DNA from: Nostoc sp. ATCC 43529 | Lineage (GTDB): Bacteria; Cyanobacteriota; Cyanobacteriia; Cyanobacteriales; Nostocaceae | Assembly (NCBI GenBank): GCA_003326205.1 | Contig: LWTK01000034.1 | Span: 1 to 64,000 of the forward strand | Direction: 5' to 3' | DNA: 64,000 nt | In this document: positions 8,996 to 53,439 of the stretch, piece by piece | Position numbering within the stretch: position 1 is the stretch's first letter | How the letters are laid out: every line of letters starts with the position of its first letter | Notes under the pieces: model-generated | Told to the model about the DNA's origin: nothing | Seen by the model: only the letters and a program-made list of their open reading frames with translations | Databases searched by the model: none | Position numbers and translations under genes: made by a program

Positions 8996-9115
8996 GGTCA
9001 AAATTTATAACTTTAATAAATACCAGCAACTTTGTAAATTGTTCAGCTATCAAATAGCTTTACACGTAAATCCAAATGCTGGGTAATCGTTTTCAGAATA
9101 TCATGTTAAAAGGTA

Positions 9116-9613
9116 TCAATACTCAATAGCTGCTACTGAAGTGTGGGAATTAGCACGCTTCATATCCAACCATTGTTGCAAAATCAAAGAGGCTGCCTTG
9201 CGGTCAATTAAAGCTTTATGGCGTGATGGAGAGCGATTTTCAGCTATTAGCAGTTGTTCTGCTTGAAATGAAGTCAATCGTTCATCTACGTATTCCACAG
9301 GCAAATTCAGCGCTTTACCAAGCCTTTTAGCAAACTTTTGGACTTGATGCGCTTGAAATCCCAATGAGCCATCCATTGAATAAGGTAAACCTATAACCAG
9401 GACTTGCACCTGGCGTTCATTAATTATTTGCCGGATTTGCTCGACATCTTGCTCAAAAGATGTACGTTCAATTGTAGTGATACCCGTGGCAATTAAGCCG
9501 GTGCGATCGCATCCTGCCACACCAATCCGCTTGCGACCGCAGTCTAATCCCAAAGCTGAAATAAACGGTTTTGCTTGCTGTTGGGGTATCACACTACTTC
9601 TCCTGCTGTGCAT
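9116..9613 (-). CDS. ruvX: RuvX/YqgF-type Holliday junction resolvase-like nuclease
   Basis: The protein has 165 residues with an RNase H-like fold. The signature ALGLDCGRKRIGVAGCD (about 20-35) carries the first catalytic Asp, VLVIGLPYSMDGS follows, YVDERLTSFQAEQ carries the Glu, and IDRKAASLILQQWLD the final Asp. The family acts on nucleic acid as putative Holliday junction resolvase or in 16S rRNA 5' processing. The ATG at 9611-9613 lies 20 bases inside the end of the upstream acetyltransferase gene, so the two are translationally coupled. The residues before the signature are variable, so a GTG a few codons downstream is also possible. Confidence 0.93.
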   Translation of the reverse strand: MHSRRSSVIPQQQAKPFISALGLDCGRKRIGVAGCDRTGLIATGITTIERTSFEQDVEQIRQIINERQVQVLVIGLPYSMDGSLGFQAHQVQKFAKRLGKALNLPVEYVDERLTSFQAEQLLIAENRSPSRHKALIDRKAASLILQQWLDMKRANSHTSVAAIEY

Positions 9614-10850: not shown

Positions 10851-11054
10851 TTAGCCTTAACTAACTGCTCTTTGTCGTAAGTGCTGCAATCATCTTAACT
10901 ACTTTCTGCTCTTGACTATTGCGCCAAAAGGGTGATTTTAGTAACTTAATACTTAAAAAAGCAGAAAAAGCAGATTTTGTGAGAACGCCATTGGCATTAA
11001 CTCGACAACATCTGCCTTTATTTTATTTGAATTTTGATTAAAGTATGTGTATAT

Positions 11055-11267
11055 TTATAAGCCTTGTCGAGAAACTAGCTTTTCAAAGTGGGCTTGGGTT
11101 TGATGGAGTAGTTGCTGGCGGCTATCGAAGAGTGTTTGCTGGAGGGGTGGAACAAGATTACGAGCTTGCAAAGTCATGTGTAGTTGTAAGTTAGCAACAT
11201 ATTCACTGAAATCTTGATTCATTTCATCTGCGATCGCATCCGTTAAGAAATTGGATTCCATTGCCAC
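11055..11267 (-). CDS. Small hypothetical protein
   Basis: This small soluble helical protein has 70 residues and starts at GTG 11265-11267. The start is chosen because AGGAGA lies six bases upstream; a longer in-frame extension upstream has no such site, and an internal ATG two codons later is too close to change the protein. The sequence is rich in Gln, Leu and Asn, with heptad-like spacing in LQLHMTLQARNLVPPLQQTL, which may form a coiled coil. No family is recognised. It stands alone, with about 200 bases of unannotated DNA on either side. Confidence 0.65.
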   Translation of the reverse strand: MAMESNFLTDAIADEMNQDFSEYVANLQLHMTLQARNLVPPLQQTLFDSRQQLLHQTQAHFEKLVSRQGL

Positions 11268-11413
11268 TGTGTTCTCCTGTGTTAATCCTTTGCTGTCTCT
11301 GGACATCATCAAAAATTATCACGTTGTGTGGCCTAACTTCTTAGTTTGCAATGAACTTTAACGCTTCTTTAGAGATAGCCATCTCTACGACGGGCTACGC
11401 CAAAGCAAACCCA

Positions 11414-11902
11414 TCAAAATCTTAAACCAATCCCACCTTGCACAGAAACAGCTGTACCACCACTATCACGGTAAGCATCAAAAGCGATGATGGCGTTACC
11501 AAAAAGCACAGTATTGCTATTTGGAATCATATAATCAATTCCCGGCTGTAAAGCAAAACTAATTTTGTCGCCCACAGGAGAAGAATCACCAGCAAACACC
11601 AATCCTGCACCCAAATAAGCATCAGCTTGCCAATTCAAAGGCACATCATAAGAAACCGTTGGTACAATTGCCGTACCATTACCAATTAAAACTTGGGCAC
11701 GCAGAGAAATTGGTGCTTCCAAAAGCTTGTAACGCCCAGCTATCACCCCCCCAATTTGCACGCCATCAGTGATACCAATAGTCGGGCCGATACCAATATA
11801 ACTGCCATAGGCTACTTGAGCCTGCGCTGGTTTAGCACTCATAGCTAAACTCAAGGCCAAGCCAGCCCCCAAAACAGAAAGCGAATATGGAACAAATTTC
11901 AT
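11414..11902 (-). CDS. Exported beta-barrel-like protein
   Basis: The protein has 162 residues with a Sec signal peptide: MKFVPYSLSVLGAGLALSLAM, with a cleavage site after AQA. The mature part consists of short alternating beta strands with Gly and aromatic residues (YGSYIGIGPTIGI, ISLRAQVLIG, AVSVQGGIGLRF), ending in Phe as in outer-membrane barrels. ATG 11900-11902 is preferred over a GTG five codons upstream because GAGGAAT sits nine bases before it. It is likely a small outer-membrane barrel of unknown function. A cluster of inverted repeats (TAGAGATAGCCATCTCTA near 11371-11388) follows the gene. Confidence 0.75.
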   Translation of the reverse strand: MKFVPYSLSVLGAGLALSLAMSAKPAQAQVAYGSYIGIGPTIGITDGVQIGGVIAGRYKLLEAPISLRAQVLIGNGTAIVPTVSYDVPLNWQADAYLGAGLVFAGDSSPVGDKISFALQPGIDYMIPNSNTVLFGNAIIAFDAYRDSGGTAVSVQGGIGLRF

Positions 11903-11983
11903 AGCCCAATTCCTCACACCAATGTGTCATTTGTTATTTGTCATTGGGCATGGTGTATTGGGCATTGGCTTAGGAAAACTTTT

Positions 11984-12025
11984 CCCCAGTCCCTAGTCCC
12001 CAGTCCCCAGTCCCCAGTCCCTATT
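11984..12025. repeat. STRR heptamer array, 6 units of CCCCAGT type
   Basis: Six adjacent 7-base units (CCCCAGT, CCCTAGT, three further CCCCAGT, then CCCTATT) lie between an exported-protein gene and the pentapeptide-repeat gene, ending six bases before the stop codon of the latter. They are preceded by GGGCATT-type units around 11946-11967. Confidence 0.88.
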
Positions 12026-12030
12026 CCATT

Positions 12031-14187
12031 TTACGGGCAACGAGGATGAATGCCACCTTGTGTACAAATATACGCTAGCTGCTTGGGATCTAAATTTTTG
12101 GCTTGAGAAAAATCAACGCCTTGGACTACCGCGGATACTGAGCCTAAGTCTGGAGTTTGGACAAATTGATCGGCTGGATCTTGTTTAGTGGGAGCGAGAA
12201 TTGTTCCTTGGAAATTTGCTCCTGCTACATTCGCTCCCCGTAAATCTGCAAGACTGAGGTCAGCATTTTGCAGGTTAGCGTTTTCCATCTGAGCAGAACG
12301 CAAAACGGCACCAGTTAGACGAGTGGCGCTCAGGTTTGCATTGCTGAGATTCGCCCGATCCAAATACGCCCCTGATAAATCTGCTCCTTCCCAATCGGTG
12401 TTAGTTAAATTGGCAAAGGATAATTGTGTTCCTATGGCACTGACGCGACCTAAACGCGCAGCGTACAAATTCGCTTCGTTCAACTTAGCGTCACCTAAAT
12501 CTGCTCCAGTTAAGCTGGCTTGTTCTAAGAGTGCATTTTGCAGATCGGCTCCCACTAATTGGGTGCTGTTGAGCCTAGCCTCATATAAACGGGCGTTGGA
12601 TAAATTGGCTCTGTTAAGGGTGGCGCGGCTCAAATCGGTGCGGTTCATCATCACCCGGCTGAGGTTGGCATCAGTCAGATTAGCTTGCTGCAACTGAGCT
12701 TGGCTTAAGTCAGCCATCACATCGTCGAAGGTATCCCAGCGTCCATCCTCACCCATACCCCGAAAGCGGGCGCCCTTAAGATTGGCTTGGTTCAAATTTG
12801 CAGATTTTAATTTAACTCCTGACAAATCAATACCATCTAGTACCAAATTGAATAAGGAACTACCTGGAGTACCGTTTTGACCTAATTGGATGCGGCTCAG
12901 GTCAACACCCTCGATTTTGCCAGTGTAAACAGACAGAATTTTATTGATTGTCCGTTGATTTCTTTGTAGTCGTCCTTGGCGGAGTTCTCGTTCTGGGCTT
13001 GCACCGCTGCTCAAAGACTCTAGTTCACTCACTAGAAACTGATTCTTATTTTTTAATTCGGGGATAGCTGTGGGACCGACACTTGTCAAAGCTTGCTGAA
13101 TCGTATCCACAAGGCTGGGGTTGGTTTCCTTCACCAAGAGATCCGCAAGAAATTGAATCGATTGTTGGTCTTTGAGACCGCCCAATGCCAAAATTGCACT
13201 TTGACGTTGTTCAGTGGTAGCCCCAGAGTCGGGACTTAATTGTTTGACAAGTTCTAGGAACTGTTGTCCGTTGATTTGCTTGGTTGCTCGCTGGGATTGT
13301 TGAACTTGGATATAAACTTGAGTTCCGATTAAAGTTGCCAACACAGCAGTCATGCTCGTTAGCCCTACCCCAAACAAAGTCAGATTAGGATTTTGCTGTA
13401 TCCGCCGCCATAGACGAGGTGTCTTAGTTGGTGCGGCGGCGGCCAATACTTCATTTCCCTCCTGCCATTCTTCTGCTGGTTGGTCGCTATCCCCAACAGA
13501 CTGAGCTTGTCTGTTAGCTAAGAGTGAAGAAGGGCGAGTCGCATCTATACTGTAAGTACCTGCGAGTCGATCGTGCAAGGCGCGACGCCCTCCCCGGCGC
13601 GACGGTAAAGCTATTCCTTCACCCAGCACCATTAACACAGCCAAAAAAGTGAATAATCCTAAATTCGGAAAAGCAAAGCTATAACGCCACAATAGATAAG
13701 CGATAGAAACGGGTACAGTCCAACGACCAACTCCTTCTCTAATGGCAACTGCTCCCAAACCAGGGGGCGCTCCTTGCTCGTTGACAACCCGTATTCCTAA
13801 CCAACGTTTGGGAATTGTGCTACCAGTCTTAGCCAGTAAATACAATTGCCACCAAGAAAGGGTTACAGGCGCTAATAGGGCTATTGTCCACAAAAAATTA
13901 GTAGGCCACGCTACGTTACGGATACCATAACTAACAGGCAGAGCCAATGGTCTGGCGATCGCTCTTTCCGTTGTTACCAACACAGGATTGAGCGGCACTC
14001 GATTCAAATCGCTTCTCGAATCGACATAGACACCAATGCCAAAGGGAATCAACCCACTGGTAACCACTAGTGTGATTTCAGCCGCCCAAGCAGCAAAACG
14101 CCTGCTCGCTAGCATTAGCGAATTGGCTCTTTCCGGTTCTTGTGACTGACCAGATTGATTACTTCTCCTCACAGTTGGTGTCGTCAT
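12031..14187 (-). CDS. RDD-domain membrane protein with HEAT-like and pentapeptide repeats
   Basis: The protein has 718 residues and combines three modules. Residues 25-220 form an RDD-type membrane domain with about four hydrophobic helices and the Arg and Asp residues in LASRRFAAWAAEI and RRALHDRLAGTYS. One further transmembrane helix lies near 270-290. Residues 300-400 look like a short HEAT/PBS-lyase-type helical segment (AILALGGLKDQQSIQFLADLL). Residues 420-680 are pentapeptide repeats of the A(D/N)Lxx type forming a right-handed beta helix. RDD proteins are thought to transport or sense small solutes. The function of this combination, which is common in Nostocales, is unknown. Confidence 0.88.
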   Translation of the reverse strand: MTTPTVRRSNQSGQSQEPERANSLMLASRRFAAWAAEITLVVTSGLIPFGIGVYVDSRSDLNRVPLNPVLVTTERAIARPLALPVSYGIRNVAWPTNFLWTIALLAPVTLSWWQLYLLAKTGSTIPKRWLGIRVVNEQGAPPGLGAVAIREGVGRWTVPVSIAYLLWRYSFAFPNLGLFTFLAVLMVLGEGIALPSRRGGRRALHDRLAGTYSIDATRPSSLLANRQAQSVGDSDQPAEEWQEGNEVLAAAAPTKTPRLWRRIQQNPNLTLFGVGLTSMTAVLATLIGTQVYIQVQQSQRATKQINGQQFLELVKQLSPDSGATTEQRQSAILALGGLKDQQSIQFLADLLVKETNPSLVDTIQQALTSVGPTAIPELKNKNQFLVSELESLSSGASPERELRQGRLQRNQRTINKILSVYTGKIEGVDLSRIQLGQNGTPGSSLFNLVLDGIDLSGVKLKSANLNQANLKGARFRGMGEDGRWDTFDDVMADLSQAQLQQANLTDANLSRVMMNRTDLSRATLNRANLSNARLYEARLNSTQLVGADLQNALLEQASLTGADLGDAKLNEANLYAARLGRVSAIGTQLSFANLTNTDWEGADLSGAYLDRANLSNANLSATRLTGAVLRSAQMENANLQNADLSLADLRGANVAGANFQGTILAPTKQDPADQFVQTPDLGSVSAVVQGVDFSQAKNLDPKQLAYICTQGGIHPRCP

Positions 14188-35045: not shown

Positions 35046-35942
35046 TTATTGCTGTTGCAACCACGCCACTAAATCAGCTTCAGTAGAAAAATCTAGTAAA
35101 GCTTCAGCTAAGTCTTCTAACTGAGTTAACGATAACCCACTTAGCTGCTGTTGTAATTCCGGAGTAATTACACCAATTCGTCTTATTAATTGACGCTGGA
35201 TGATTTTCAATTCTCCTTGTTGTATTCCTTCTTCCATCCAACTGGTGACGATTTGCATAACTCCCTCTTGTTGAGTTGGTTCAAATTGAGCAATTTCAGC
35301 CTGAAAAATTTCTTTCTCTTGGACATTTAGTCGTAGGTAGGTGTCGATAAAGCCGGAAATCAATTGCATCCGTGCTGGATCTAATTGCAACGTAGCTAAC
35401 AGGCGCAGACACTCAGATTTTACTCTGGGACGGTCTTTTGGTGCTATGCTCATTTTAGCCATGAGTGCGCTAGCTACGGGATTTTGTTGTTGCAAGAATT
35501 CTCGCCAATTCAAGCGATTCAACTGGATAACATCATAGTTGAACTGCAACACAACTTTGTTGGGAAATACTACTTGATGAAAATTGGGTTCGAGTTTTTT
35601 GGGGCTATCGTAAGAAAATAAGGCGATGGGATAAACTGGCAGAGCGTATTTTTCGTATAATCTAGCGAAGTAACGATACATCCGTAAATCAAAAGCTTCT
35701 TGATAATAAGCTTGATGTTCTAAATGTACGAGAAAACACGATTCTTGTTCTCTAAATCTGGCTTTTACTACTATGTCAGTTTCATATTTTTCTCCAGCAG
35801 TAACATCCGTAAATACTTCTTTGTCGAGAAAGGTGATGGTGTCTCTTTCTAAATAAGCAGTTATCTCTGGAAAGAATAATTCAAGGAATTCCCAGAAGAA
35901 GGTGGTTAGCAGTTCTTTGAATAAGCGATCGTGGTCTATCAT
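35046..35942 (-). CDS. Rpn-family (recombination-promoting nuclease/DUF4351-type) protein
   Basis: The protein has 298 residues. The N-terminal part matches the Rpn/PDDEXK transposase-like nuclease family: DRLFKELLTTFFWEFLELFFP, then TDIVVKARFREQESCFLVHLEHQA, where Asp, Glu and Gln give the modified PD-(D/E)XQ site. The C-terminal about 100 residues are a DUF4351-type helical region (GELKIIQRQLIRRIG, LSLTQLEDLAEALLDF). These genes are numerous in filamentous cyanobacteria. Homologues promote recombination or act as antiphage or growth-inhibiting nucleases. The complete copy looks intact, with an ATG start at 35940-35942. Its 3' part is duplicated downstream. Confidence 0.87.
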   Translation of the reverse strand: MIDHDRLFKELLTTFFWEFLELFFPEITAYLERDTITFLDKEVFTDVTAGEKYETDIVVKARFREQESCFLVHLEHQAYYQEAFDLRMYRYFARLYEKYALPVYPIALFSYDSPKKLEPNFHQVVFPNKVVLQFNYDVIQLNRLNWREFLQQQNPVASALMAKMSIAPKDRPRVKSECLRLLATLQLDPARMQLISGFIDTYLRLNVQEKEIFQAEIAQFEPTQQEGVMQIVTSWMEEGIQQGELKIIQRQLIRRIGVITPELQQQLSGLSLTQLEDLAEALLDFSTEADLVAWLQQQ

Positions 35943-36120
35943 GCCAAATTTATATCATGTCTTGAATTGAAGAGCGATCGCTTTTTTTAACGAACCACAG
36001 AGACGCAGAGAACACAGAGGAAGGAGATAAGAGGCAATACTTGTGGTAAGCTACGCTAACGTACAGTCTAAACATCATATTTTGATTACGATTAATAATA
36101 GACTGACTCTATAAATTTAT

Positions 36121-36422
36121 ATGCAAATCAAAGAAATTCTTCAAGCACTTCCAAGTTTGAGCATAAGCGATCGCTTAAAGATAGCTGAATCAGCCCTAGA
36201 ATCCGTTCTTCAAGAAAAACACTCACTTACCAAACCAAAGATGAGCAAAAACAACAATTAACACTAGCAGCAATGACAGCTATTGCAGATTATGTACCTG
36301 GTAGTAAATTAAATATATTCTCAGATTTAGAGGGAGAAGATTTTTACGATTATCCAGATGAAGACTTCTATAACTCAGAAACTTATGTACAAAGCTTAAG
36401 TTTGGATACACCTATTAGATGA
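36121..36422 (+). pseudogene. Small hypothetical gene with a one-base frameshift
   Basis: From ATG 36121 the frame reads MQIKEILQALPSLSISDRLK and continues to about codon 39. It then leaves the sensible frame and stops at 36259-36261. Shifting back by one base near 36235-36240 restores a continuous frame, DEQKQQLTLAAMTAIADYVPG and so on, to a stop at 36420-36422. The combined product of about 100 residues looks like the small helical, acidic-tailed proteins common in Nostocales, possibly antitoxin-like. The simplest explanation is loss of one base in the ACCAAACCAAAG segment. No toxin gene is adjacent. Confidence 0.65.
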
Positions 36423-36452
36423 TTAACCTTACAAAGAGCTATTTAATTTTAA

Positions 36453-37217
36453 TTATCGGTTCCAGTATGATAAATTAATAATCGTATATTCAGTTTTTTC
36501 TTCTCCTGTCGCAGGATTTATAGAAGATATTTCTTGAATGGTGGCAGTATATAATTTTCCTATAGTTAATTCTATAGCTTTGTTATTTATAACATTATTA
36601 ATAGCCTTACCTATATATCTTTTTTTATCTTGAAAAGCGTCTATTTCAAGATTATTTGTGTTCTTATTAGCTGCAATTAACTGCCCGTTTACAATATACT
36701 CTGATGGATCTTCAACTTCCATTTTATTTATAAACTCTATAGTAGTAATTACATTATCAAAAGATAATTCTGCTCTGCCACCTTTCTCTGGGTTGACGGA
36801 ACCCCAATCAAAATAAAAATTAGCTTCTGAGTTTAGTAAAGTCATTAAAAATTTGCGATATCTAGAAGCTGATCTCTTTCTCAGTCTAAGTAGATGTTCT
36901 TTCAATCTTGCTTTTTCAGGATAGTTGCTGAGATGGATAAGTTCAATAAAAGTTTCACTAACTCTTTCTGCTAGTGGTCTTTCAAGAAAATTTAATTGTT
37001 GTGGATGTGGAGCTAAAGCTAGTTTTATGCCAAAAGAACCTTGAAAAGTTTCAAATACAGAAAGTTCTGTTCTTTCGGCAATTTCTTTTTGAATTCTTCC
37101 ATTTTCTGAAATTTTCCCTGATTCAGATTGACCAACAGCATCAAATAATTCTTGTAGAGAGTTTAAAACAATACCCATTTTTTTTGCTGGTATTTGTTTT
37201 TGATTTTCTTTATACAA
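36453..37217 (-). CDS. Hypothetical protein, C-terminal part of a split accessory protein
   Basis: The frame encodes 254 residues from a TTG at 37215-37217; the first ATG is at 37176-37178. The frame is open further upstream to an A-run at 37248-37254, where it would join the preceding 103-residue frame by a one-base slip. The sequence has no membrane segment. It contains a basic helix, ARLKEHLLRLRKRSASRYRKFLMTLL, FDWGSVNPEKGG, and a C-terminal small beta-barrel-like region (GKLYTATIQEISSINPATGEE). The residues IPAKK before the first ATG look like part of the domain, which supports reading in from upstream. A+T-rich. I do not recognise a named family with certainty. Confidence 0.65.
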   Translation of the reverse strand: MYKENQKQIPAKKMGIVLNSLQELFDAVGQSESGKISENGRIQKEIAERTELSVFETFQGSFGIKLALAPHPQQLNFLERPLAERVSETFIELIHLSNYPEKARLKEHLLRLRKRSASRYRKFLMTLLNSEANFYFDWGSVNPEKGGRAELSFDNVITTIEFINKMEVEDPSEYIVNGQLIAANKNTNNLEIDAFQDKKRYIGKAINNVINNKAIELTIGKLYTATIQEISSINPATGEEKTEYTIINLSYWNR

Positions 37218-37234
37218 AAATTTAAATTTTAATG

Positions 37235-37546
37235 TTAATATTTCTTGTTTTTTTCTAGTGCTATATCTTTAACATTTTTAACTACATTAATGATTTCTGA
37301 TAATGGTCTTTGTTCAAAAAATTCTAGAGTTTTAAAAACTTCATATATACGATCATAAAAATCGGGAAGTTCAGTATCTAAAGGCAACAAAATAGAGAAT
37401 TTTTTATTATTTTTTCTTTTTGCCCAAATGGATGCTCTACTATCAATTTTTTCTTCTTCTTCCCAGCCATTAGTAACAAGATATTCAACAACAGAGCTTG
37501 GTTCTATGGAGTTTAATATAGGAATATATCCTTTACTGAAATTCAT
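37235..37546 (-). CDS. Hypothetical protein, N-terminal part of a split accessory protein
   Basis: The frame encodes 103 residues. It starts at ATG 37544-37546, overlapping the DUF4365 gene by four bases. The sequence has a compact alpha/beta layout: VVEYLVTNGWEEEEKIDSRAS, then WAKRKNNKKFSILLPLD, then a helix with YDRIYEVFKTLEFFEQRPLSEII. That resembles the N-terminal domain of longer uncharacterised proteins found near defence genes. It runs into AAAAAAC at 37248-37254 and stops 12 bases later. A one-base slip there continues into the 254-residue frame, giving a 364-residue product. This is either a genuine slip, a mutation, or two separate proteins. Confidence 0.6.
   Translation of the reverse strand: MNFSKGYIPILNSIEPSSVVEYLVTNGWEEEEKIDSRASIWAKRKNNKKFSILLPLDTELPDFYDRIYEVFKTLEFFEQRPLSEIINVVKNVKDIALEKNKKY
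37248..37254 (-). other. Slippery A7 run joining two frames
   Basis: On the minus strand the last codons read GAA AAA AAC AAG. The heptamer A AAA AAC has the X XXY YYZ form used for -1 ribosomal frameshifting. A -1 shift, or one extra A in the transcript, leads into the open frame of the downstream ORF. No obvious stimulatory stem-loop was seen after it. Confidence 0.5.
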
Positions 37547-38061
37547 AACTCCTCTTTCCGCGCTATTTTGCTCATAATCGAAGAAAGAGCAAATGGAGTC
37601 AATATATTTTCATGTGGTATATCTATTGTAATTGTAGTAGTATTTTCAGTTTTTGGTCTTCCCTTCAGAGAAATCCAATATCCACATCTTTTCATTAAGG
37701 TTTTTTCTTCAGATATGTTTATCCAGCCATTAATATCAGTAGGAACTAAAACAACAATTAATAGCTGGGGTGTTAATGGTTTTTCATGCCTTAATTTATG
37801 ATAATTTTTAACTTCTAGAGGAAATTTAATGTAATTACTATGAAAAACATTTTGCGAAGAAGTACATTTTACTTGTGCATCAAATTTAGGAAATAATATT
37901 TCACCTATTTCTCCAGGGACTTCAATAGTGACATCAACTCCAGCATTATCCATAGCTCTTTGCTTATTTTCAACTGTATATCCTGCAACTGAAGCAACTG
38001 CTCGAATATATGCATAACTAAATTCTTCTTTTTGTGTATTACTGTCCATTGATAGTGTCAT
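37543..38061 (-). CDS. DUF4365-domain protein (nuclease-like)
   Basis: The protein has 172 residues. The N-terminal helix YIRAVASVAGYTVE, then NAGVDVTIEVPG and PKFDAQVKCTSS, gives the D...QxK arrangement of the DUF4365 family. This family has a restriction-endonuclease-like fold and often sits in accessory or defence loci. The C-terminal half has ISLKGRPKTENTTTITIDIP and a helix. It is the first gene of an A+T-rich three-frame cassette with four-base overlap to the next frame. The start ATG at 38059-38061 was chosen; a second ATG four codons in is possible. The target is unknown. Confidence 0.8.
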   Translation of the reverse strand: MTLSMDSNTQKEEFSYAYIRAVASVAGYTVENKQRAMDNAGVDVTIEVPGEIGEILFPKFDAQVKCTSSQNVFHSNYIKFPLEVKNYHKLRHEKPLTPQLLIVVLVPTDINGWINISEEKTLMKRCGYWISLKGRPKTENTTTITIDIPHENILTPFALSSIMSKIARKEEL

Positions 38062-45647: not shown

Positions 45648-45791
45648 GTACATGGGTTACGAGTTAATTGAGAACTCTAACGACATAATTTCAAAATTTC
45701 TATTATCCCTAAGAGATAAAATAAAAAATGTACTATCAGACCAATTGCTGATAATCAAGATAAATTTTCGTGAGGATGTCTCACAAATCCT

Positions 45792-46310
45792 ATGGACGCA
45801 ATTTATATTCCGCAGCTAACTAGAGCATCGGAGCGGACAGAGGAAGTTCAAGTTAAAGAATTTCTGCCTGGTCTAGAAACGTTGACACCAGTTCGCGGTC
45901 GTGTACGCGTACAGCATCATGGTAATTATTTGCAAGTATCCGGTCAGGCAGAAGCTATTATTACTTGTACCTGCAACCGCTGTTTGCAGCAATATAATCA
46001 ACGCTTGGGGATTGATACGAAGGAAATCATCTGGTTAGATGAAACTGCAAATCAGGTAAAAGACTTGCCTTTAGAAAGGGAAGTAACTATGGAAGATTTG
46101 GTAGAAAGTTTACCACCAGATGGTTATTTTTATCCCAACGAATGGCTATATGAGCAAATGTGCTTAGCAATGCCTCAACGTCAATTGTGCGATCGCAATT
46201 GTCCAGGTATTCCACCAAGTACTACTGTTGATGATTCTGATAGTTCCGAAACTCCAGTTGATAACCGTTGGGCTGGTTTGGAAGCATTGAAAAAGCAACT
46301 TCCGGGCTAA
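45792..46310 (+). CDS. YceD/DUF177 family protein
   Basis: The protein has 172 residues. It matches the YceD (DUF177) family: RVQHHGNYLQVSGQAEAIITCTCNRCLQQY with the CxCxRC pair near residues 58-62, then WLDETANQ and a later cysteine segment, EQMCLAMPQRQLCDRNCPGIPP. Family members are linked to 23S rRNA or ribosome biogenesis, and the Cys residues likely bind zinc. In many bacteria the gene precedes rpmF; here it closes the rpmH-yidC cluster, with 180 bases between it and jag. Confidence 0.9.
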   Translation: MDAIYIPQLTRASERTEEVQVKEFLPGLETLTPVRGRVRVQHHGNYLQVSGQAEAIITCTCNRCLQQYNQRLGIDTKEIIWLDETANQVKDLPLEREVTMEDLVESLPPDGYFYPNEWLYEQMCLAMPQRQLCDRNCPGIPPSTTVDDSDSSETPVDNRWAGLEALKKQLPG

Positions 46311-46317
46311 CAGCTTG

Positions 46318-46381
46318 ATTTCCCGCCTGTGCGATCGCTTTTAGGAATATTAATTACACAGAGACAGCATGGGCGGGAAAT
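46318..46381. terminator. Long stem-loop between convergent units
   Basis: ATTTCCCGCC (46318-46327) and GGCGGGAAAT (46372-46381) form a perfect 10-base stem around a 44-base loop containing a GCGATCGC site. It lies just after yceD and before the stop of the convergent GTPase operon. It may end transcription from either side, but no long T-run is seen. Confidence 0.5.
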
Positions 46382-46456
46382 ATATAAAGTTTCGAGAAAG
46401 CGATCGCAACGCTAACCAATCCCCACCGACAAAAATTGCTAGTGTAGGTTGTGACT

Positions 46457-47050
46457 TTATTCATAAATAGGTAAAGATTTAATATACTTAATTAAGTCAG
46501 AATAACACTTCAAAATTTTATGATTATAATCACTTTCATCATTAAACTGATATGTTTGACAGTATAAAATAAACCAGGCTAAATAATTTACATTTCTTTG
46601 TTCAAAAGGAGGTAAGTTAATAAAATTGTCAATCATTGGCAAGCATTCTGGTATTTTTGAAATCAATTCAAGACTAAATTTTGTAGATTTATCTTCAACA
46701 TTTTTCTTATAAAATTTATTATTTATTTTTGAAATTATATTTTTTTTATAAATGTTATAAATGCGGTGGTCTTTTTGATTGTCAGCAGTGTTGGGTGAAT
46801 GATAGTTTTTTAAAAATTTAACTAACTCAAACAAATTATTGTTGTTTCCAACCCCTAGTTTATCCATCAAAAATATTAAATCTGGATTTCTTGCTACCTC
46901 TAAATATTGGTAGATTAAGTTCCAATCTCTTTGAAATGGATTTGTGAATTCTTCTTTGTTTGATGTGGAGCTTACACTGGGGATGGAAATCCCAGAATTA
47001 TGAATAATATCACTATTACTCCCACCAGCAACATTATCATTATCCGCCAA
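46457..47050 (-). CDS. Hypothetical protein, probable frame-shifted extension of the 306-aa partner
   Basis: The frame encodes 197 residues from a TTG at 47048-47050. There is no in-frame ATG before codon 63, and the frame stays open upstream to a stop near 47140. The open part therefore reaches back to an A9 run at 47124-47132 inside the 306-residue gene. Residues 1-35 are an Asn/Ser-rich linker; the rest is a helical globular domain (RDWNLIYQYLEVARNPDLIFLMDKLG, then NNLFELVKFLKNYH, and LAWFILYCQTYQF). The lack of a start codon and binding site, plus the A-run, suggest it is translated as a C-terminal extension, giving a 478-residue fusion. No known family recognised. Strongly A+T-rich. Confidence 0.6.
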   Translation of the reverse strand: MADNDNVAGGSNSDIIHNSGISIPSVSSTSNKEEFTNPFQRDWNLIYQYLEVARNPDLIFLMDKLGVGNNNNLFELVKFLKNYHSPNTADNQKDHRIYNIYKKNIISKINNKFYKKNVEDKSTKFSLELISKIPECLPMIDNFINLPPFEQRNVNYLAWFILYCQTYQFNDESDYNHKILKCYSDLIKYIKSLPIYE

Positions 47051-47892
47051 AGAATTGGAATCGGCTGATGGGATACTTGAAGTTGTTCTGGCTGGAATGT
47101 CTCCAGTGAAGGTAATACTTCCGTTTTTTTTTGCGGTAATTCAACGACTTCTCTTGCAGGTTCTTCTACATTATTTGCAAAACCTCTCCACACACCAGCT
47201 TTGTGCAGAATAGTTCTTTTTTCTAAATTTTCTGTCACAACAATTAAAACGCCATCGTTTTTTGTTTTGCCATCCCAATTCAACCATTGTTTAGGCAGAC
47301 TATAATTTCGGAGATCTTCTGCCAATTTCTCTAAACTTTCAGACGATTTATGTCCTATTTGATATTTTGAATAAAATTCTGCATCACTAAATTGATGGCT
47401 ATAAACTGGTTCAATATGCCCAATATATTCGTTAATATTTTTTATATTGACTCGAAATTCTTCTAATCCATAAAATTCTACTGATTTTTCAATCATTTCA
47501 CTGAATGAGAAATCTTTTTGTAAAATATTTTGGATTGCACTATGAGCAATCTTTCGTAAGACTACTTCATTTTCTTCTATATCATCAGCTATCCAAACGA
47601 TAGAATTGAAAACTTTTCGGTTTAGTTTAGTAGAGCGTTGGGGTGATTCGATTCCTGTAGTTTCTAATAAAAGCTTTTTGTTTTCATTATCTCTCAATAT
47701 AAGTAGTGAAGGTTTCACTTCATCAATTAAGTCATTAACAATAGCTATTTGACCATTTTGTTCTCCAAAAACTTGGCGTTTGATCAAACTAGGATCTTTT
47801 CTAGGCTGATGTTCTTCACTCTCGATACTACGCCAGTGAATACCTGTATTGCCTAGTGCTGAGGTTTTAACATAAATTTCAAAGTTACTCAT
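46972..47892 (-). CDS. GTPase-operon partner protein with C-terminal membrane anchor
   Basis: The protein has 306 residues. The N-terminal about 230 residues form a soluble alpha/beta region (YVKTSALGNTGIHWRSIES; FNSIVWIADDIEENEVVLRKIAHSAI; DGVLIVVTENLEKRTILHKAGVWRG). It is followed by a polar linker and one transmembrane helix at 282-303 close to the C-terminus, so it is a tail-anchored type. It follows the 425-aa GTPase gene by 22 bases. Codons 254-257 contain nine consecutive A residues; a one-base slip there would skip the anchor and add a 222-residue soluble tail. I do not recognise a named family. It resembles the associated proteins of predicted GTPase conflict systems. Confidence 0.75.
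   Translation of the reverse strand: MSNFEIYVKTSALGNTGIHWRSIESEEHQPRKDPSLIKRQVFGEQNGQIAIVNDLIDEVKPSLLILRDNENKKLLLETTGIESPQRSTKLNRKVFNSIVWIADDIEENEVVLRKIAHSAIQNILQKDFSFSEMIEKSVEFYGLEEFRVNIKNINEYIGHIEPVYSHQFSDAEFYSKYQIGHKSSESLEKLAEDLRNYSLPKQWLNWDGKTKNDGVLIVVTENLEKRTILHKAGVWRGFANNVEEPAREVVELPQKKTEVLPSLETFQPEQLQVSHQPIPILWRIMIMLLVGVIVILFIILGFPSPV
47124..47132 (-). other. A9 slippery run with dual-coding consequence
   Basis: The minus strand reads CCG CAA AAA AAA ACG in the 306-aa frame. A -1 shift on A AAA AAA, or insertion of one A by transcriptional slippage, gives CAA AAA AAA AAC GGA and enters the frame of the 197-aa ORF. Downstream, 46972-47123 then codes in two frames: a hydrophobic anchor in one and an Asn/Ser-rich linker in the other. 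Confidence 0.55.
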
Positions 47893-47914
47893 AACACATC
47901 ATCCTTGTTACTCA

Positions 47915-49192
47915 CTAGAAAATAGACTGGGGAACATGGAACCACTTGTGTCCTTGAACAATTGCAAACCCATCATTATTTTTACAACCGATGGCAAATT
48001 TATATAAGGCATTGTTGAATGCATTAATTTGTTCTTGAGTCGCTTGAACTTTGAGCGAAGTTAATTGAAAGTTTGATTGGGTTTCTTGAAGCTCAATTTG
48101 TTTTTGTTCAAATTGTCCTTTAGATGCATAATACGGTGATTCTCTATCATCAAAAATATTGAATATAGCTCTAGCTAGCCACCACATCTCATTACGTTCA
48201 TTTAAGAGTCTTTGTTTTTCATCAAATTCTCTTTTTGCAGCGTCTAATTTCTGTTTATCCTTACCAATCTCACTTGTAAGTATTTTTAACTTCTCTTGTT
48301 CATTTTGCAGTATTTCTTTTTTATTTTCTAAAAATACATTAATTAGAAACAATAAAATATATCGCAGAGGTTGATCGCCATCTTTAGGTTCGTAGGGAGC
48401 GTTAATAGGAGTTTTATGGTAGTAAAATTTAGTATAACCATTGTCATCAGTCTTGGCATAACTGAAAACTACATTTCCAATAGTTTCGACTGGAGTTATT
48501 ACTACAGCTACCTTATCAATTAAAGATTCTGATTTCAAAAAATTGAGCAACTCACTATATCCTATTTGGACATGGTATAGTAAGCTTTCTGCGTCTCTAG
48601 ATGTTTTAGTATAAGTTTCACACTTGACGGGAGCTAAAATTACTAATCTAGGCGATTTTACATTAGTATAAGCATCTTTTAAAAGTTGAGTAATGCGCTG
48701 AGAATTATTTTTTTCTTCATGCCATGTGCCGATTTCGGCATTATTTACCTTTCCCGTCTTTTTTTGCATGAGTGCAGTAGCATCAATAGGAATTACTACC
48801 GCATCACATTCATTTAACTGCCTTTTAACATATTCTTTGTATTCACCTGTAGCATCTGGATTAAAGTATTCACCAGAAGGATCGGTGAACCTCAATTTCA
48901 TAAACTTTTTTCCACTACTACCAAGCTCAAAGCTAAAACCTTGGTCATTCCAAGGGTTATCTCTAGGCTGTGTAGGAGTAACTTGATTTTCTAATTTTGC
49001 ACCGATATTTCTCAAAACAGATTTACATTCTTGTATCGCACGTAATGTATTGTTATCATCTACCCAAGTTTGGAGATTAGCTCTGTCGAAAGTTTTGTGA
49101 AATTCTTCGTGCATGGCTGCTAAAAGACTGGTTTTCCCCATTCCTCTGAGAGCAACCATAATAATTTTTAATTCTTCATTTCCATCTGCCAT
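47915..49192 (-). CDS. Small GTPase/ATPase with coiled coils (two-GTPase system component)
   Basis: The protein has 425 residues. The P-loop domain covers about 8-290: ALRGMGKTSLL (14-24) is a Walker A with Ala in the first position, FTDPSGE (103-108) gives the DxxG element, and LAPVKCE (186-192) is where NKxD is expected. Residues 290-335 and 355-395 are predicted coiled coils, interrupted by an aromatic segment, WWLARAIFNIFDD. The C-terminus has a short conserved-looking WFHVPQ. It lies 15 bases after the dynamin-like GTPase gene and 22 before the anchored partner. It is similar in style to GTPases of predicted double-GTPase conflict systems; the nucleotide specificity is inferred. Confidence 0.75.
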   Translation of the reverse strand: MADGNEELKIIMVALRGMGKTSLLAAMHEEFHKTFDRANLQTWVDDNNTLRAIQECKSVLRNIGAKLENQVTPTQPRDNPWNDQGFSFELGSSGKKFMKLRFTDPSGEYFNPDATGEYKEYVKRQLNECDAVVIPIDATALMQKKTGKVNNAEIGTWHEEKNNSQRITQLLKDAYTNVKSPRLVILAPVKCETYTKTSRDAESLLYHVQIGYSELLNFLKSESLIDKVAVVITPVETIGNVVFSYAKTDDNGYTKFYYHKTPINAPYEPKDGDQPLRYILLFLINVFLENKKEILQNEQEKLKILTSEIGKDKQKLDAAKREFDEKQRLLNERNEMWWLARAIFNIFDDRESPYYASKGQFEQKQIELQETQSNFQLTSLKVQATQEQINAFNNALYKFAIGCKNNDGFAIVQGHKWFHVPQSIF

Positions 49193-49207
49193 AATTTTTC
49201 CTTACTA

Positions 49208-51460
49208 TTATTGAGCTAAATTAAAAGATTCAAGTTCATTAATTATATTAACTTGATTAACTGACTCCATCCATTTTTTTCTCATCTCTCTGTCCCTTTC
49301 TTTTTTTCCAAAAATTTCTGACCAAATCTGTCCGCGAAGTCCCCTGAGAAAATTTTTCCATTCTTTTTGAATATCTTTTTGACGAATGATATTATCAATA
49401 AATTCCTCTACCATTGCATGAGCCGCTTCGTTGGGTTCACACAGTAACTCTTCTATGGCTGGTTTAATAGTATTAATTGCTTTATTATAATCGATTTCCA
49501 AAGCTGTAAAAATATCGTCGGCAGTCGTATCTTTAGAAACAGTAAGTGTTTTATCTTGTTGTTCGGAAATTCCTCCTGATTGGCCTGTCATAGCACTAAT
49601 ATTAGTAAGTCCATCTAAGTGTTGGCGAATCCGAGGAAGAATTAATCCACGATATGATAATTGGAAATCAGCTATGATTCTAAACCCTGCTTTTAGCTTG
49701 GTAAAACGCTCTGGTATAAGTTGAGAAATTTCGGTAAAAAACTCTGAGCCTTCGCTATTACTGATAATATTTAAACGCCCTTTTTCTTTTAAAACATTAA
49801 CAACCTGATTTTTAACTAATTCCACTGTCCGTTTGAGATTCTCATCTAAAGATAAGAAACGATGAGAAATCAAGACTCTCAGTTCATCTTGGTAATCAGG
49901 ATAAGCTCTAAATGCACTACTAATCATAATTCGATTATTAATCTCTTGTAGTGCATTTTCTAGTGATAAAATTCCTTTATCTTGTTCGCAATTTTTAATT
50001 GCATTCAGGACACCATGATATAACTCTTCATTGGGGGTTTGACGTAGATACCAAAGCTCTGTTCTAAGTGTTTGAAGTGCTAATGCGACATCTTTCCACC
50101 AGCCATTGTCACTATCTCCGAATAAGTCGCTGAAGAGTTCTTCAATTTCTTGAGAATCATCTTCTAAGTTTTGATTAAAGACAGTTTTGGCTTTATTCAA
50201 TTCAGCATTGACGGCTTGATGAGTTTCTAATAAACGTTTTTGACAAGTAGAAGTGTATTGTTTATCGAGAACAGTCAAATTATTAGTTAAATAATCTAAA
50301 ACTGTATCTAAAAGTTGACTTGTTTCTGTGTCATTAGCACAGTTAGCAATCAAACATTTTTCTACGTTGATGTGTTTTTCTTCTACTGTATTTAATAAAT
50401 CTTCGCAGTTTTTGAAATTATCGCCATTATTGGATTCAGCATTAGTTTTATTGAGTACTACAAATGACCATAAGTTAACTGGCAAATCCACTAAGGCTGA
50501 ACGAGCAGTATCGTATAATTTAACATCGACATCTGCCCAGTAATCTCCAGCAGATTTAGGCATTCTCACAAATAAAACAAAATCAATATCTTTGCCTAAT
50601 GCTTTAATTAACCTTTCTTCGTCTCCAAGTCCGGTATCTCCTAAACCTGGCATATCAACTAATGCAATTTTACCAATATCAACATTGGGAAATTTGCAGG
50701 TAATTTTTACTTCTTTAACTGCTAAATAGTTAAATAAAATCCGTTGACCGTCAGGAGTATCTTGGGAAACATATTCTCGAATGTTATCTTTCTGAATAAT
50801 TCGAGGCGAGGTTTCTCTCAGGAGATGATGATATTGATCGAGATGAGTATGATATCGCTTTAAATGTTCATACATTGCCCCTGGTGCTGCATAACCAGGG
50901 ATATCTTGAGGTAATTGTGGTAAGGGTTTATTGGCAAATTCTTCTAAAGTGATGGGTTTTATACCTAAACGAAGTTTTTCATAATAAGGAGCAATCACAT
51001 CATCTAAAAACGATCGCTCCGTATGAAACCACACTTCTGCATAAGTATCTACTTGAGGATTATGATGAATTGTACTCCGAACTCCTGTACAATGCTGGCG
51101 ATCGCCATCAGGAATTTCTGCTGCACTTAATCCGGTTAAACTTTGCAAAAGACGGCTTTTTCCTTGTCTAGCACGTCCTACAACACCTATATTGAGAGTA
51201 TCGCGAGAAAAACGGTTTTTAAGCTTAGTTAAAGCCTCTAATTCAGAGGCGATAGTCAACTGAATGTTAGAAAAATTAATTTCTTCAAGTCTTCCAATAA
51301 CATTCGGTTCGTCAACTTGTTTTAAAAGGTGGTTGCGGTACTCCTCCAGTTGATTCAGCGCTGTGGAAAGAGTTTTCAAGTTCCCCTCTACCAGTTGAAT
51401 CCTCTGAGCAAGGGGCTTACGCTTCTCAAGAATGCTGGTAATAATTGTGGCTCTGTCCAT
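49208..51460 (-). CDS. Dynamin-like large GTPase
   Basis: The protein has 750 residues. After about 90 helical residues the GTPase domain shows GRARQGKS (95-102) as G1, a Thr-containing G2 region around CTGVRST (124-130), LVDMPGLGD (267-275) as G3, and VVLNKTN (334-340) as a variant G4 where NKxD reads NKTN. A long helical region follows (about 400-750), without a clear transmembrane helix. This is the layout of bacterial dynamin-like or DO-type GTPases, which use GTP-driven assembly, some in antiphage defence. First gene of the operon. A TATAAT-like -10 sits about 36 bases before its ATG. Confidence 0.85.
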   Translation of the reverse strand: MDRATIITSILEKRKPLAQRIQLVEGNLKTLSTALNQLEEYRNHLLKQVDEPNVIGRLEEINFSNIQLTIASELEALTKLKNRFSRDTLNIGVVGRARQGKSRLLQSLTGLSAAEIPDGDRQHCTGVRSTIHHNPQVDTYAEVWFHTERSFLDDVIAPYYEKLRLGIKPITLEEFANKPLPQLPQDIPGYAAPGAMYEHLKRYHTHLDQYHHLLRETSPRIIQKDNIREYVSQDTPDGQRILFNYLAVKEVKITCKFPNVDIGKIALVDMPGLGDTGLGDEERLIKALGKDIDFVLFVRMPKSAGDYWADVDVKLYDTARSALVDLPVNLWSFVVLNKTNAESNNGDNFKNCEDLLNTVEEKHINVEKCLIANCANDTETSQLLDTVLDYLTNNLTVLDKQYTSTCQKRLLETHQAVNAELNKAKTVFNQNLEDDSQEIEELFSDLFGDSDNGWWKDVALALQTLRTELWYLRQTPNEELYHGVLNAIKNCEQDKGILSLENALQEINNRIMISSAFRAYPDYQDELRVLISHRFLSLDENLKRTVELVKNQVVNVLKEKGRLNIISNSEGSEFFTEISQLIPERFTKLKAGFRIIADFQLSYRGLILPRIRQHLDGLTNISAMTGQSGGISEQQDKTLTVSKDTTADDIFTALEIDYNKAINTIKPAIEELLCEPNEAAHAMVEEFIDNIIRQKDIQKEWKNFLRGLRGQIWSEIFGKKERDREMRKKWMESVNQVNIINELESFNLAQ

Positions 51461-51927
51461 CGGATAACTTGATTGAGGTGTCTACCCCTCAGTGTATTAT
51501 AAAATGCGACGTTAAGGAGTATGAAAACGCCAGGGAAAATTTTGAGATTGGCTGCGCTTTGACGACAGTATTTGAGAAAAACACTACATAACTCAATCGG
51601 CTTTGTTAAGGCTATACCTCTTTGTCAAAGTCAATTTTTTTAGTGTAGACGCGCAGCGGCTTGCCGAAGGCTACCACAGAGACGCAGAGAACACAGAGAG
51701 AAGGGAAAAATACTTAACTGAACTGTACTGCTATATAACTTTGATATATCAAATTTTATAAGTAATTGAGTTATTCAGATTTTTCAGTTAATAAATACTG
51801 CTAGTTAGAGAGCCATATTTTACATTAAATATATTGATGTAAGAATTCAGGTTAAAGAAGGTAATAGTGTTGTGAAAGATAATACAAACCTGAACAATTA
51901 GAGAAGAAGTAATAACCATAGCTAAAT
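51461..51927. other. Divergent intergenic region with dispersed repeats
   Basis: This region of 467 bases between the GTPase operon and the Ycf46-like gene holds a copy of the ACAGAGACGCAGAGAACACA repeat (51678-51697), also present near 35996, next to a GCAGCGGCTTGCCGAAGGCT element. The remaining DNA is A+T-rich. No gene is seen. Confidence 0.55.
51496..51501 (-). promoter_or_regulatory. Candidate -10 box of the GTPase operon
   Basis: The minus strand reads TATAAT here, about 36 bases before the ATG of the dynamin-like GTPase gene. The -35 region is weak (TTCATA/TCATAC at 17-18 bases), so regulation by an activator is possible. Recognised by eye only. Confidence 0.4.
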
Positions 51928-53439
51928 ATGAACTTCCGTGAAGAGTTTAAACTGCTGCTACGCGCCCGCTACCCTTTGATTTATATTCCTACATACGAAG
52001 AAGAACGAGTAGAAGCATCTATCCGAGAAGAAGCAGCAAACCAAGGCAATCGGCCTGTGTATACTTGGGATTTTGTCGATGGTTACCAGGGAAATCCTAA
52101 TGATGCGGGGTTTGGGCGGCGTAACCCGCTGCAAGCTTTGGAATTCGTGGAAAAATTACCAGCCTCAGCGCCAGCGGTATTGATTTTACGAGATTATCAT
52201 CGCTTTTTAGAAGATGTGGCGATCGCCCGCAAACTCCGCAACCTCGCCCGTCTCTTGAAGTCGCAACCCAAAAATATTGTACTGCTGTCGCCACGCATCG
52301 CCATTCCCGACGACTTAACCGAGGTGCTGACAGTTGTGGAGTTTCCCTTACCCAACGCCCCAGAAATTAAAACTGAGGTAGAACGCTTACTGCAAAGTAC
52401 TGGGAACTCACTCTCTGGAAAAGTTTTAGATGACTTGGTGCGTTCTTGTCAAGGACTTTCGATGGAACGAATTCGGCGAGTTTTGGCAAGAGCGATCGCT
52501 AGCCACGGGGAATTGCAGCCAGAAGACGTGGATCTGGTTTTGGAAGAAAAGCGCCAAACTATCCGCCAAACCCAAATTCTGGACTTCTACCCCGCCACTG
52601 AGCAAATTTCTGATATCGGCGGACTGGATAACTTAAAAGACTGGCTGATTCGTCGGGGAGGCTCTTTTAGCGAACGGGCAAGGCAGTACGGATTACCGCA
52701 CCCCCGTGGTTTAATGTTGGTGGGTATTCAGGGAACTGGCAAATCGTTAACAGCAAAAGCGATCGCTCATCACTGGCATTTACCCCTGCTACGTTTGGAT
52801 GTCGGGCGGTTATTTGGTGGTTTGGTAGGCGAATCGGAATCTCGCACCCGCCAAATGATTCAGGTAGCTGAAGCCCTTGCCCCTTGTATTTTATGGATTG
52901 ATGAAATAGATAAAGCCTTTTCAGGACTTGGTAGCAAAGGTGATGCGGGCACTACTAGCCGTGTGTTTGGCACATTTATTAACTGGCTAGCTGAAAAAAC
53001 CTCACCCGTGTTTGTTGTCGCCACCGCCAACGATATCCAAGCCCTACCGCCAGAAATGCTGCGTAAAGGGCGATTTGATGAAATTTTCTTTGTCGGGTTG
53101 CCCACCCAAGAAGAGAGAAAAGCAATTTTTAATGTTCATTTATCCCGACTGCGCCCCCACAACTTAAAAAGTTATGACATCGATAGGTTAGCTTATGAGA
53201 CACCTGATTTTTCTGGGGCAGAAATTGAGCAAACTTTAATTGAAGCCATGCACATTGGATTTAGCCAAAACCGTGATTTTACTAAAGACGATATTTTAGA
53301 GGCTGCCAGTCAAATTATCCCCTTAGCACGAACCGCAGTAGAGCAAATTCAGCAACTTCAAGAATGGGCTGCTGCGGGGAGGGCGCGTTTAGCATCGAAA
53401 CACAGCCCTTTGAGCGATAGCTTCGGTAAGCTACGCTGA
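51928..53439 (+). CDS. Ycf46-like AAA ATPase
   Basis: The protein has 503 residues. The N-terminal about 220 residues are a divergent domain with [17 protein letters not shown] and [11 protein letters not shown]. The AAA+ module covers about 230-480, with [15 protein letters not shown] as Walker [15 protein letters not shown] as Walker B and [14 protein letters not shown] as arginine-finger region. It matches the Ycf46 family known from algal plastid genomes and all cyanobacteria, linked to CO2 or photosynthesis regulation in Synechocystis. It is a single gene, divergent from the GTPase operon. The last few codons read into a dispersed repeat. Confidence 0.9.

Follow-up and report, generated by a model that had tools for sequence, protein, structure and literature searches.

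A mobile cyanobacterial operon that combines a dynamin-like protein, a DO-GTPase2-family protein and a predicted membrane-anchored partner

The window analysed here, a stretch of 64,000 nucleotides from a Nostoc-type genome (Nostoc sp. ATCC 43529, contig LWTK01000034.1), contains an operon on the minus strand. Reading of the open reading frames confirmed that it comprises the three frames of 750, 425 and 306 amino acids described in the initial annotation, which are separated by gaps of 15 bases (gene 1/gene 2) and 22 bases (gene 2/gene 3). The features of the locus are as follows:

49208..51460, minus strand: gene 1, dynamin-like large GTPase, 750 amino acids (open reading frame and fold)
51155..51178, minus strand: P-loop of gene 1, GRARQGKS, residues 95-102 (sequence)
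47915..49192, minus strand: gene 2, P-loop protein of the DO-GTPase2 family, 425 amino acids (PF19993)
49130..49153, minus strand: P-loop of gene 2, ALRGMGKT, residues 14-21 (sequence)
48872..48883, minus strand: DPSG motif of gene 2, residues 104-107 (sequence)
48014..48316, minus strand: coiled-coil insertion of gene 2, residues ~293-393 (alignment)
46972..47892, minus strand: gene 3, putative membrane-anchored partner, 306 amino acids (predicted structure and hydropathy)
46990..47055, minus strand: predicted C-terminal membrane helix of gene 3, residues 280-301 (model helix and Kyte-Doolittle)
46457..47050, minus strand: gene 4, accessory open reading frame with TTG start, 197 amino acids (homologues in some relatives)
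46310..51868, no strand: segment that most congeners with a resolved site lack or have replaced (flanking identity)

As had been claimed, the operon is richer in A+T than its surroundings, with a GC content of 0.356 for gene 1, 0.340 for gene 2, 0.338 for gene 3 and 0.264 for gene 4 versus 0.424-0.478 for the eight flanking genes. Terminator-like sites are at background level (3 versus 2.6), and 29 promoter-like sites were counted versus 20.7 expected (standard deviation 4.6). The left end of the feature lies at 46457 because the open reading frame of gene 4, which overlaps gene 3, was included. Gene 4 is nearly confined to the subclade of the window: homologues are found in L031, L034, L057, L059, L090-L096, L098, L099 and L102 and weakly in L032, all with a long gene 2, and a 22-bit match is present in L157, whose gene 2 is short. 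Its start is uncertain, as homology with L034 begins near residue 50.

The dynamin-like protein, the DO-GTPase2-family protein and the anchored partner form a real conserved module. Gene 2 is present in 25 of 386 cyanobacterial genomes, and all 25 gene-2 loci from 24 other cyanobacterial genomes carry gene 1 upstream and gene 3 downstream; for gene 3, tblastn alone detected 22/25 and blastp 24, and L033 was added via tblastn, which gives the combined 25/25. From 113 named loci the best 80 were taken; the stretch fetched around each contains a same-strand gene 1 in 69 cases, gene 3 in 76 and both in 67. In this set, genes 1 and 2 are directly adjacent in 60 pairs (median gap 18 bp) and genes 2 and 3 in 69 pairs (median gap 13 bp). 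The distance matrices of the operon genes correlate with r values of 0.69, 0.61 and 0.83, the largest value of 1000 permutations being at most 0.23. The scan was open to all phyla; 75 of these best 80 loci have cyanobacterial titles, and the trio is also found in Nonomuraea (Actinomycetota). Chance adjacency of the three genes is thus excluded by their co-occurrence across genomes, and the initial proposal of an operon of two different GTPases with an anchored partner was borne out by the synteny survey it had called for.

The locus is mobile and patchy across cyanobacteria. Flanking identity with congeners stops at 46309 and restarts at about 51869, and of the 28 congeners compared at this site, 18 are empty or carry other genes, one contains the operon and nine were unresolved. 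The other genes include those for OLD/GajA-like ATPases, PIN, HNH and NOV_C proteins. Two plasmid copies of the operon were found, and each of the three genes occurs as a broken copy (gene 1 in L174, gene 2 in G298 and gene 3 in L032). Searches for relatives in phages and in viral contigs found none.

Gene 1 is by its predicted fold a clear member of the dynamin superfamily, although its sequence reaches only 22.0 bits against the Pfam model Dynamin_N, below the cut-off of 27; the earlier designation as a dynamin-like GTPase stands by fold. Among the 53 aligned gene-1 sequences, 49 match Dynamin_N at E 0.001 or better, and the single relatives L054, L171 and L137 exceed the cut-off. The protein consists of a large GTPase domain with G1-G3 motifs, which is set between helical neck and trunk bundles, and residues G95, G100, K101 and S102 of the P-loop are invariant in the 53 sequences. 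GTP hydrolysis and membrane remodelling are its predicted activities. The fold search gave the Nostoc punctiforme BDLP (2j69) and SynDLP (7zw6) among its first three matches; both share the GTPase domain between helical bundles, with 12% identity to gene 1 in the fold alignments. In a 2018 survey, however, BDLP falls into the Tandem groups, in which one dynamin is paired with a second, and SynDLP is assigned to the KGK clade, which typically has a KGK protein gene downstream (PMC5827413). Some relatives of gene 1 encode the dynamin as a fusion with a HEPN_Swt1 or AAA_35 domain, and the HEPN_Swt1 fusions suggest an effector-type role in these relatives. The LeoBC model of PADLOC, which belongs to the dynamin-type defence Eleos, matches gene 1 only at E 0.024 and only within residues 32-123.

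Gene 2 exceeds the cut-off of PF19993 (DO-GTPase2; 42.3 bits, E 9.1e-11, cut-off 27), and all 25 members of alignment A1 match this family at E 0.01 or better; at the same threshold, 10 of 25 gene-2 relatives match MMR_HSR1. The DPSG motif noted earlier is present, and we take it to be the Walker B/switch II motif; its residues D104 and G107 are invariant in the 25 aligned sequences, as are G19 and K20 of the P-loop, and the short forms mostly have DYPG. The long coiled coil of the initial annotation, which was judged by eye, exists in the window protein but is no feature of the family, as it is an insertion found in six of the 25 aligned sequences and absent from the forms of 313-365 amino acids. 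The idea that a C-terminal motif shifts into the next gene in the short forms was wrong, since the A1 alignment keeps the motif within gene 2 and identifies the coiled coil as inserted. That the 425-amino acid protein might be a housekeeping GTPase, a possibility raised at the outset, is ruled out by its PF19993 membership and its presence in only 25/386 genomes.

Gene 3 was modelled with a pLDDT of 87 as a folded alpha/beta domain (residues 1-250), a disordered linker (251-277) and a membrane helix. The C-terminal anchor that had been read from the sequence was recovered as a model helix at residues 280-301, where the 19-residue Kyte-Doolittle mean peaks at 3.34, and 65 of 74 gene-3 relatives possess a C-terminal hydrophobic segment. 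In 66 gene-3 sequences, 2.2 K/R residues precede this segment versus 0.9 after it, and the predicted orientation puts the N-terminal fold on the cytoplasmic side and the variable tail across the membrane. The tails of the relatives range from a few residues up to coiled-coil-like, WD40 or Ig-like stretches. The profile search assigned gene 3 to no Pfam family above its cut-off, and the sequence search for relatives of known structure gave nothing convincing. Among the families that it listed, the fold search gave weak matches to the longin type, whose fold is beta-beta-alpha-beta-beta-beta-alpha-alpha, and gene 3 is possibly a longin-like regulator.

We tentatively favour the view that the trio is a mobile three-part membrane switch, which is most likely used in conflict or envelope stress; it has the appearance of a not yet described system that acts on membranes in defence or stress. 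The analysis itself shows that the three genes form a conserved, mobile set, to which families genes 1 and 2 belong, and which helix and orientation are predicted for gene 3. Gene 3 would be anchored by its C-terminal helix, its N-terminal fold facing the cytoplasm and its variable tail lying opposite, and the cytoplasmic domain might bind and regulate gene 2 in the way longin/roadblock proteins act on small GTPases. Active gene 2 would then recruit or license gene 1 to oligomerise on the membrane of gene 3, where gene 1 may seal, fuse, tubulate or break the membrane, for instance during phage attack. How the three proteins interact, in which order they act, what triggers them and what the host gains is what we infer from co-inheritance, folds, the helix and K/R bias of gene 3, mobility, the HEPN_Swt1/AAA_35 fusions and the precedent of DynA. 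To our knowledge, DynA is a single dynamin without a DO-GTPase or an anchored partner. DynA of Bacillus subtilis, likewise a bacterial dynamin acting at the membrane, is described as giving resistance against phage infection (PMC8844932). The logic proposed here for the switch resembles that of GTPase and roadblock/longin pairs of the MglA/MglB and Rag/Ragulator-FLCN type, in which a protein of the longin or roadblock kind governs a small GTPase at a membrane.

A bolder version of the switch is unlikely as a whole: gene 3 would be a transmembrane receptor, whose variable tail senses an extracytoplasmic or membrane signal and whose longin-like cytoplasmic domain passes it via the DO-GTPase switch to the dynamin as immune effector; the module would then parallel, in bacteria, the eukaryotic combination of a small GTPase, a longin-type regulator on a membrane and a dynamin. 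If this is true, no bacterial dynamin known to us before it would have had a small-GTPase switch and a membrane receptor of its own. Bacterial dynamins are widespread, and the cues for where and when they act are mostly unknown; the literature describes their functions in a similar way. In the module a dynamin is accompanied almost constantly by a small GTPase and a membrane protein, across tens of cyanobacteria and one actinobacterium, so that three proteins suffice for a direct test of how a bacterial dynamin is controlled.

The strongest competing explanation, on the unlikely side but to be taken seriously, is physiological membrane maintenance, in which gene 3 marks a domain of the cell or thylakoid membrane and genes 1 and 2 remodel it for dynamics, fusion or repair, without any role in conflict. 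Cyanobacteria are rich in membranes, and the fold matches to BDLP and SynDLP as well as the cyanobacterial titles of 75 of the best 80 loci are in line with this. So are the comparisons with known defence genes: no match better than E 0.0021 was found in PADLOC-DB for any of the four proteins, and the enrichment near defence genes that had been suggested as a check was not seen. The neighbour survey (150 proteins drawn from 257 eligible, at most 75 cyanobacterial loci, E 1e-12; five loci with non-cyanobacterial titles and proteins over 900 amino acids left out) gave 69 PADLOC families, no more than the 95 obtained from a background of 125 proteins, which came from 20 random stretches in ten module-carrying genomes and served as control; it is a coarse test, since families rather than proteins are counted, one protein can match many models (Cas1 and DpdF in the control) and a few of the neighbours are AAA_35 genes from the module's own variants. 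The suspected link to conflict thus retains the mobility of the locus and the defence- and toxin-type genes at its site in congeners, but not the enrichment. However, the presence of gene 2 in so few genomes, the absence or replacement of the operon in 18/28 congeners, the plasmid copies and the broken copies point to gain and loss unusual for a maintenance gene, and the HEPN_Swt1 fusions also speak against this explanation.

A literature search found no paper on the trio; a looser cyanobacterial group of "dynamin + HSR1 GTPase" has been published, and it is improbable that the trio is this HSR1 group. The survey describes the group as a dynamin gene followed downstream by an HSR1-type GTP-binding protein with a possible regulatory role (PMC5827413), an order identical to that of genes 1 and 2; in addition, the MMR_HSR1 matches of 10/25 gene-2 relatives fit, and some gene-1 relatives may be in the survey set because many carry Dynamin_N, the family used there. 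However, nearly all of the 121 cBDLPs of the survey possess the extended P-loop GxxxxGKS/TxL/INALL/I (PMC5827413), whereas gene 1 has GKSRLLQSLTGL. In the window, the stretch reads GRARQGKSRLLQSLTGL; the consensus of 53 sequences is identical, with Q106, S107 and L108 at 90% or more. Moreover, the window protein falls below the Dynamin_N cut-off, DO-GTPase2 is matched by all 25 gene-2 relatives, and the section of the survey on the HSR1 group mentions no third, anchored gene (PMC5827413). The window genome also encodes other dynamin-type genes, one of which (L240, 836 aa) has a 584-aa P-loop protein downstream, an order that resembles the published HSR1 arrangement.

Little probability attaches to the reading of gene 3 as a shortened or divergent GAP1 and of the dynamin as a variable effector of a described DO-GTPase/GAP1 system. 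We know of no predicted DO-GTPase system that has been experimentally tested. Gene 2 does belong to the "double-GTPase" family predicted to be conflict-linked (Kaur et al. 2020, PMC7159879), so that this part of the initial comparison with known double-GTPase loci holds, and these systems, too, contain membrane components. However, with matches up to E 1 considered, the Pfam search of the four proteins gave no GAP1, GASH or FNIII-repeat model, and GAP1-N2, the sole GAP1 model searched genome-wide, is absent from the window genome and from G320; with no GAP1 recognised by these models, the trio falls outside the canonical DO-GTPase conflict systems. A paralogous DO-GTPase pair was reported in 38% of the systems only and is therefore not required for membership (PMC7159879); the window operon has a single DO-GTPase gene, and among the 80 loci surveyed (the best of 113) two intact DO-GTPases occur only in L169, with split frames in L136 and L144. 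The described systems were reported as nearly completely absent in cyanobacteria, and the main text of Kaur et al. does not mention dynamin (PMC7159879), whereas the trio has a cyanobacterial host, a small anchored partner and a dynamin that is near-constant rather than variable. Should the favoured conflict reading of the switch be true, a membrane-acting dynamin arm would be added to the predicted DO-GTPase systems. In favour of the GAP1 reading, a second cyanobacterial locus, L171, couples a more distant dynamin of the gene-1 kind with a DO-GTPase1 protein.

The window belongs to contig 34; the assembly totals 8.46 Mb, and the named genomes closest to it are Nostoc. Four minus-strand genes are enclosed there by two plus-strand genes, which we take to encode a YceD/DUF177-like protein (45792-46310) and an AAA-ATPase (51928-53439):

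49208-51460, minus strand, gene 1, ORF of 750 aa, dynamin-like large GTPase
47915-49192, minus strand, gene 2, ORF of 425 aa, DO-GTPase2-family P-loop protein
46972-47892, minus strand, gene 3, ORF of 306 aa, partner with a C-terminal membrane helix
46457-47050, minus strand, gene 4, accessory ORF of 197 aa with a TTG start

The gaps between genes 1, 2 and 3 measure 15 and 22 bases, and the GC content of the four operon ORFs is 0.26-0.36 compared with 0.42-0.48 in eight flanking genes, which bears out the initial annotation on both the close packing (15-22 bases) and the A+T-richness relative to both sides. The TTG start of gene 4 at 47050 is doubtful, because its homology to locus L034 begins near residue 50. 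Clear relatives of gene 4 are found solely beside a long gene 2, and a 22-bit match (L157) lies beside a short one. A profile search assigned gene 2 to DO-GTPase2 (PF19993, 42.3 bits), a family that is also matched by 25/25 members of an alignment of gene-2 relatives, in which G19, K20, D104, G107 and E192 are invariant (n=25). The long coiled coils noted earlier for gene 2 hold for the window protein but not for the family: an insertion of around 100 residues, coiled-coil-like by eye, is present in 6 of the 25 aligned proteins, and the remaining ones are 313-365 aa long.

Genes 1, 2 and 3 form a real, conserved and mobile module. Gene 2 is present in 25/386 cyanobacterial genomes sampled, and in 25/25 loci taken from the 24 of these other than the window's own it is preceded by gene 1 and followed by gene 3 (in L033 by tblastn only), so that the expected co-occurrence was found. 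The reverse search with gene 1 (E 1e-20) identified 30/386 genomes, including all 25 gene-2 genomes. Among the other five genomes, G305 (L170) has a contig that stops directly after gene 1, G360 (L173) has a gene 1 fragment that reaches past the contig end with no gene 2 after it, G346 (L174) a broken gene 1 adjoining a gene that is transposase-like by eye, G042 (L172) a longer dynamin with no adjoining gene 2, and G320 (L171) a dynamin followed by a DO-GTPase1 protein. A scan with one genome per species, partly covering the same genomes, yielded 113 gene-2 relatives; among the best 80 of these loci, 69 have a same-strand gene 1, 76 a same-strand gene 3 and 67 both, with 60 gene 1/gene 2 and 69 gene 2/gene 3 pairs as direct neighbours. 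Eleven of the best 80 loci lack gene 1; three of them have less than 1 kb of upstream sequence, and six belong to Okeania or Hydrocoleum. Furthermore, inter-protein distances of genes 1-3 correlate across 53 loci (r 0.69, 0.61 and 0.83; permutation maxima 0.23, 0.19 and 0.15), shared ancestry of the species being ignored. In L131, L137, L148 and L160, other genes lie between genes 1 and 2 (Symploca) or no gene 1 is nearby (Okeania); a linked dynamin may therefore be dispensable for genes 2 and 3. In L032 (6917-9416), gene 3 is split by an insertion of around 1.6 kb, with N- and C-terminal matches on opposite sides, which carries 224- and 172-aa ORFs that are transposase-like by eye only.

The operon site was compared in 28 other genomes of the genus. 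Six congeners have the flanking genes 0.3-1.1 kb apart and no operon; for 14 more, a wider stretch revealed both flanks without the operon in 12 (1.5-5.6 kb between flanks), the operon in G398 and a single flank in one. Overall, the site was resolved in 19/28 congeners, 18 without and one with the operon. Family searches identified OLD-like AAA ATPases (L265, L266), PIN (L271), HNH (L276), NOV_C (L272), SMI1/KNR4 (L264) and a ParA-like gene (L268) at the site, and likeness of the first residues only points to further OLD-like (L274, L277), PIN (L268, L270, L272, L275) and SMI1-like (L275) genes; L267 contains nothing but short ORFs. The DUF177/AAA intergenic site (window 45700-52100; L264-L277) is thus an exchange hotspot, and it also houses defence- and toxin-type genes. 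The two site ATPases tested strongly match the PADLOC defence models Old, GajA, PtuA and HEC-01A, yet such matches are generic for these ATPases; eight more site proteins gave weak matches or none. Genes 1-4 are all present on two Nostocales plasmids, close to a TrsK-like transfer gene, and a third plasmid is named as carrier of one gene-2 relative (P0179). Beyond cyanobacteria, a complete Nonomuraea record holds genes 1, 2 and 3 in order, with a gene 3 match of only 56 bits, and module genes occur in five MAG loci titled Chloroflexota, Hyphomicrobiales or Bacillota, some of which may be mis-binned.

The mobility, the company at the site and fusions in relatives favour a possible role in conflict. 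L054 (10278-14180) encodes a dynamin joined to both AAA_35 and a Swt1-like HEPN domain, the database protein P0301 (51% identity) joins HEPN_Swt1 to dynamin, and L137 encodes a dynamin with an AAA_35 fusion; HEPN_Swt1 domains are of the conflict type. In addition, AAA_35 or AAA_35/vWA proteins adjoin the operon in L054, L055 and L130. The neighbour survey does not support this role: enrichment near defence genes, raised in the initial annotation, was not seen in a coarse wider survey, in which the module's nearest neighbours (150 proteins, 69 PADLOC families) showed no excess over random stretches (125 proteins, 95 families). Neither did the proteins of genes 1-4 give a good match to PADLOC models, nor were relatives of the module found in the phage records and viral contigs searched; together, these three points argue against defence.

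DO-GTPases and their GAP1 partners were defined by Kaur et al. 2020 (PMC7159879), who describe DO-GTPase/GAP1 systems as 'nearly completely absent' in cyanobacteria; the word dynamin does not occur in their main text. DO-GTPase1 matches are present in 20/146 cyanobacterial genomes sampled, 15 above the cut-off, which is commoner than the wording of that study suggests for GTPase-centric systems; two of the weaker matches are gene 2 of the present module. A 2018 survey of cyanobacterial dynamins (PMC5827413) describes an 'HSR1 group' with a GTP-binding protein downstream, for which regulation was suggested. However, the signature motif given there is absent from gene 1 of the present module, and an arrangement resembling the HSR1 group by description is found at L240, another dynamin-type gene of the same genome. 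Searches covering few subscription papers found no literature combining 'dynamin' with 'DO-GTPase' or naming PF19993 or DO-GTPase2, and the words dynamin and GTPase are both absent from the main text of the DefensePredictor paper. As anticipated, the three-gene module has no described counterpart in the searchable literature; its novelty lies where two known kinds meet, bacterial dynamin operons and DO-GTPase systems. A switch-and-dynamin mechanism fits best, in which gene 3 would regulate gene 2, which in turn would license gene 1 to act on the membrane.

A second DO-GTPase locus of the window's own genome, L050 (G000:C38:72501-92500, 6618-13604), encodes a run of three small P-loop proteins: DO-GTPase2, DO-GTPase1 and a third that gives sub-cut-off matches only. 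It also includes a radical-SAM gene and genes for two proteins of 377 and 893 aa that lack Pfam domains, and the 20 kb examined contain no dynamin of the gene-1 family. In another cyanobacterium, a gene-1-family dynamin (35% identity) adjoins a DO-GTPase1 protein (L171, 8060-16410), together with 1030- and 506-aa proteins without Pfam domains, an arrangement that may connect the module to canonical DO-GTPase systems. Within the window, a further A+T-rich patch (36001-38000, GC 0.30-0.32) with 254- and 172-aa ORFs adjoins a presumably transposase/nuclease-like ORF (35046-35942) and is possibly a second insertion.
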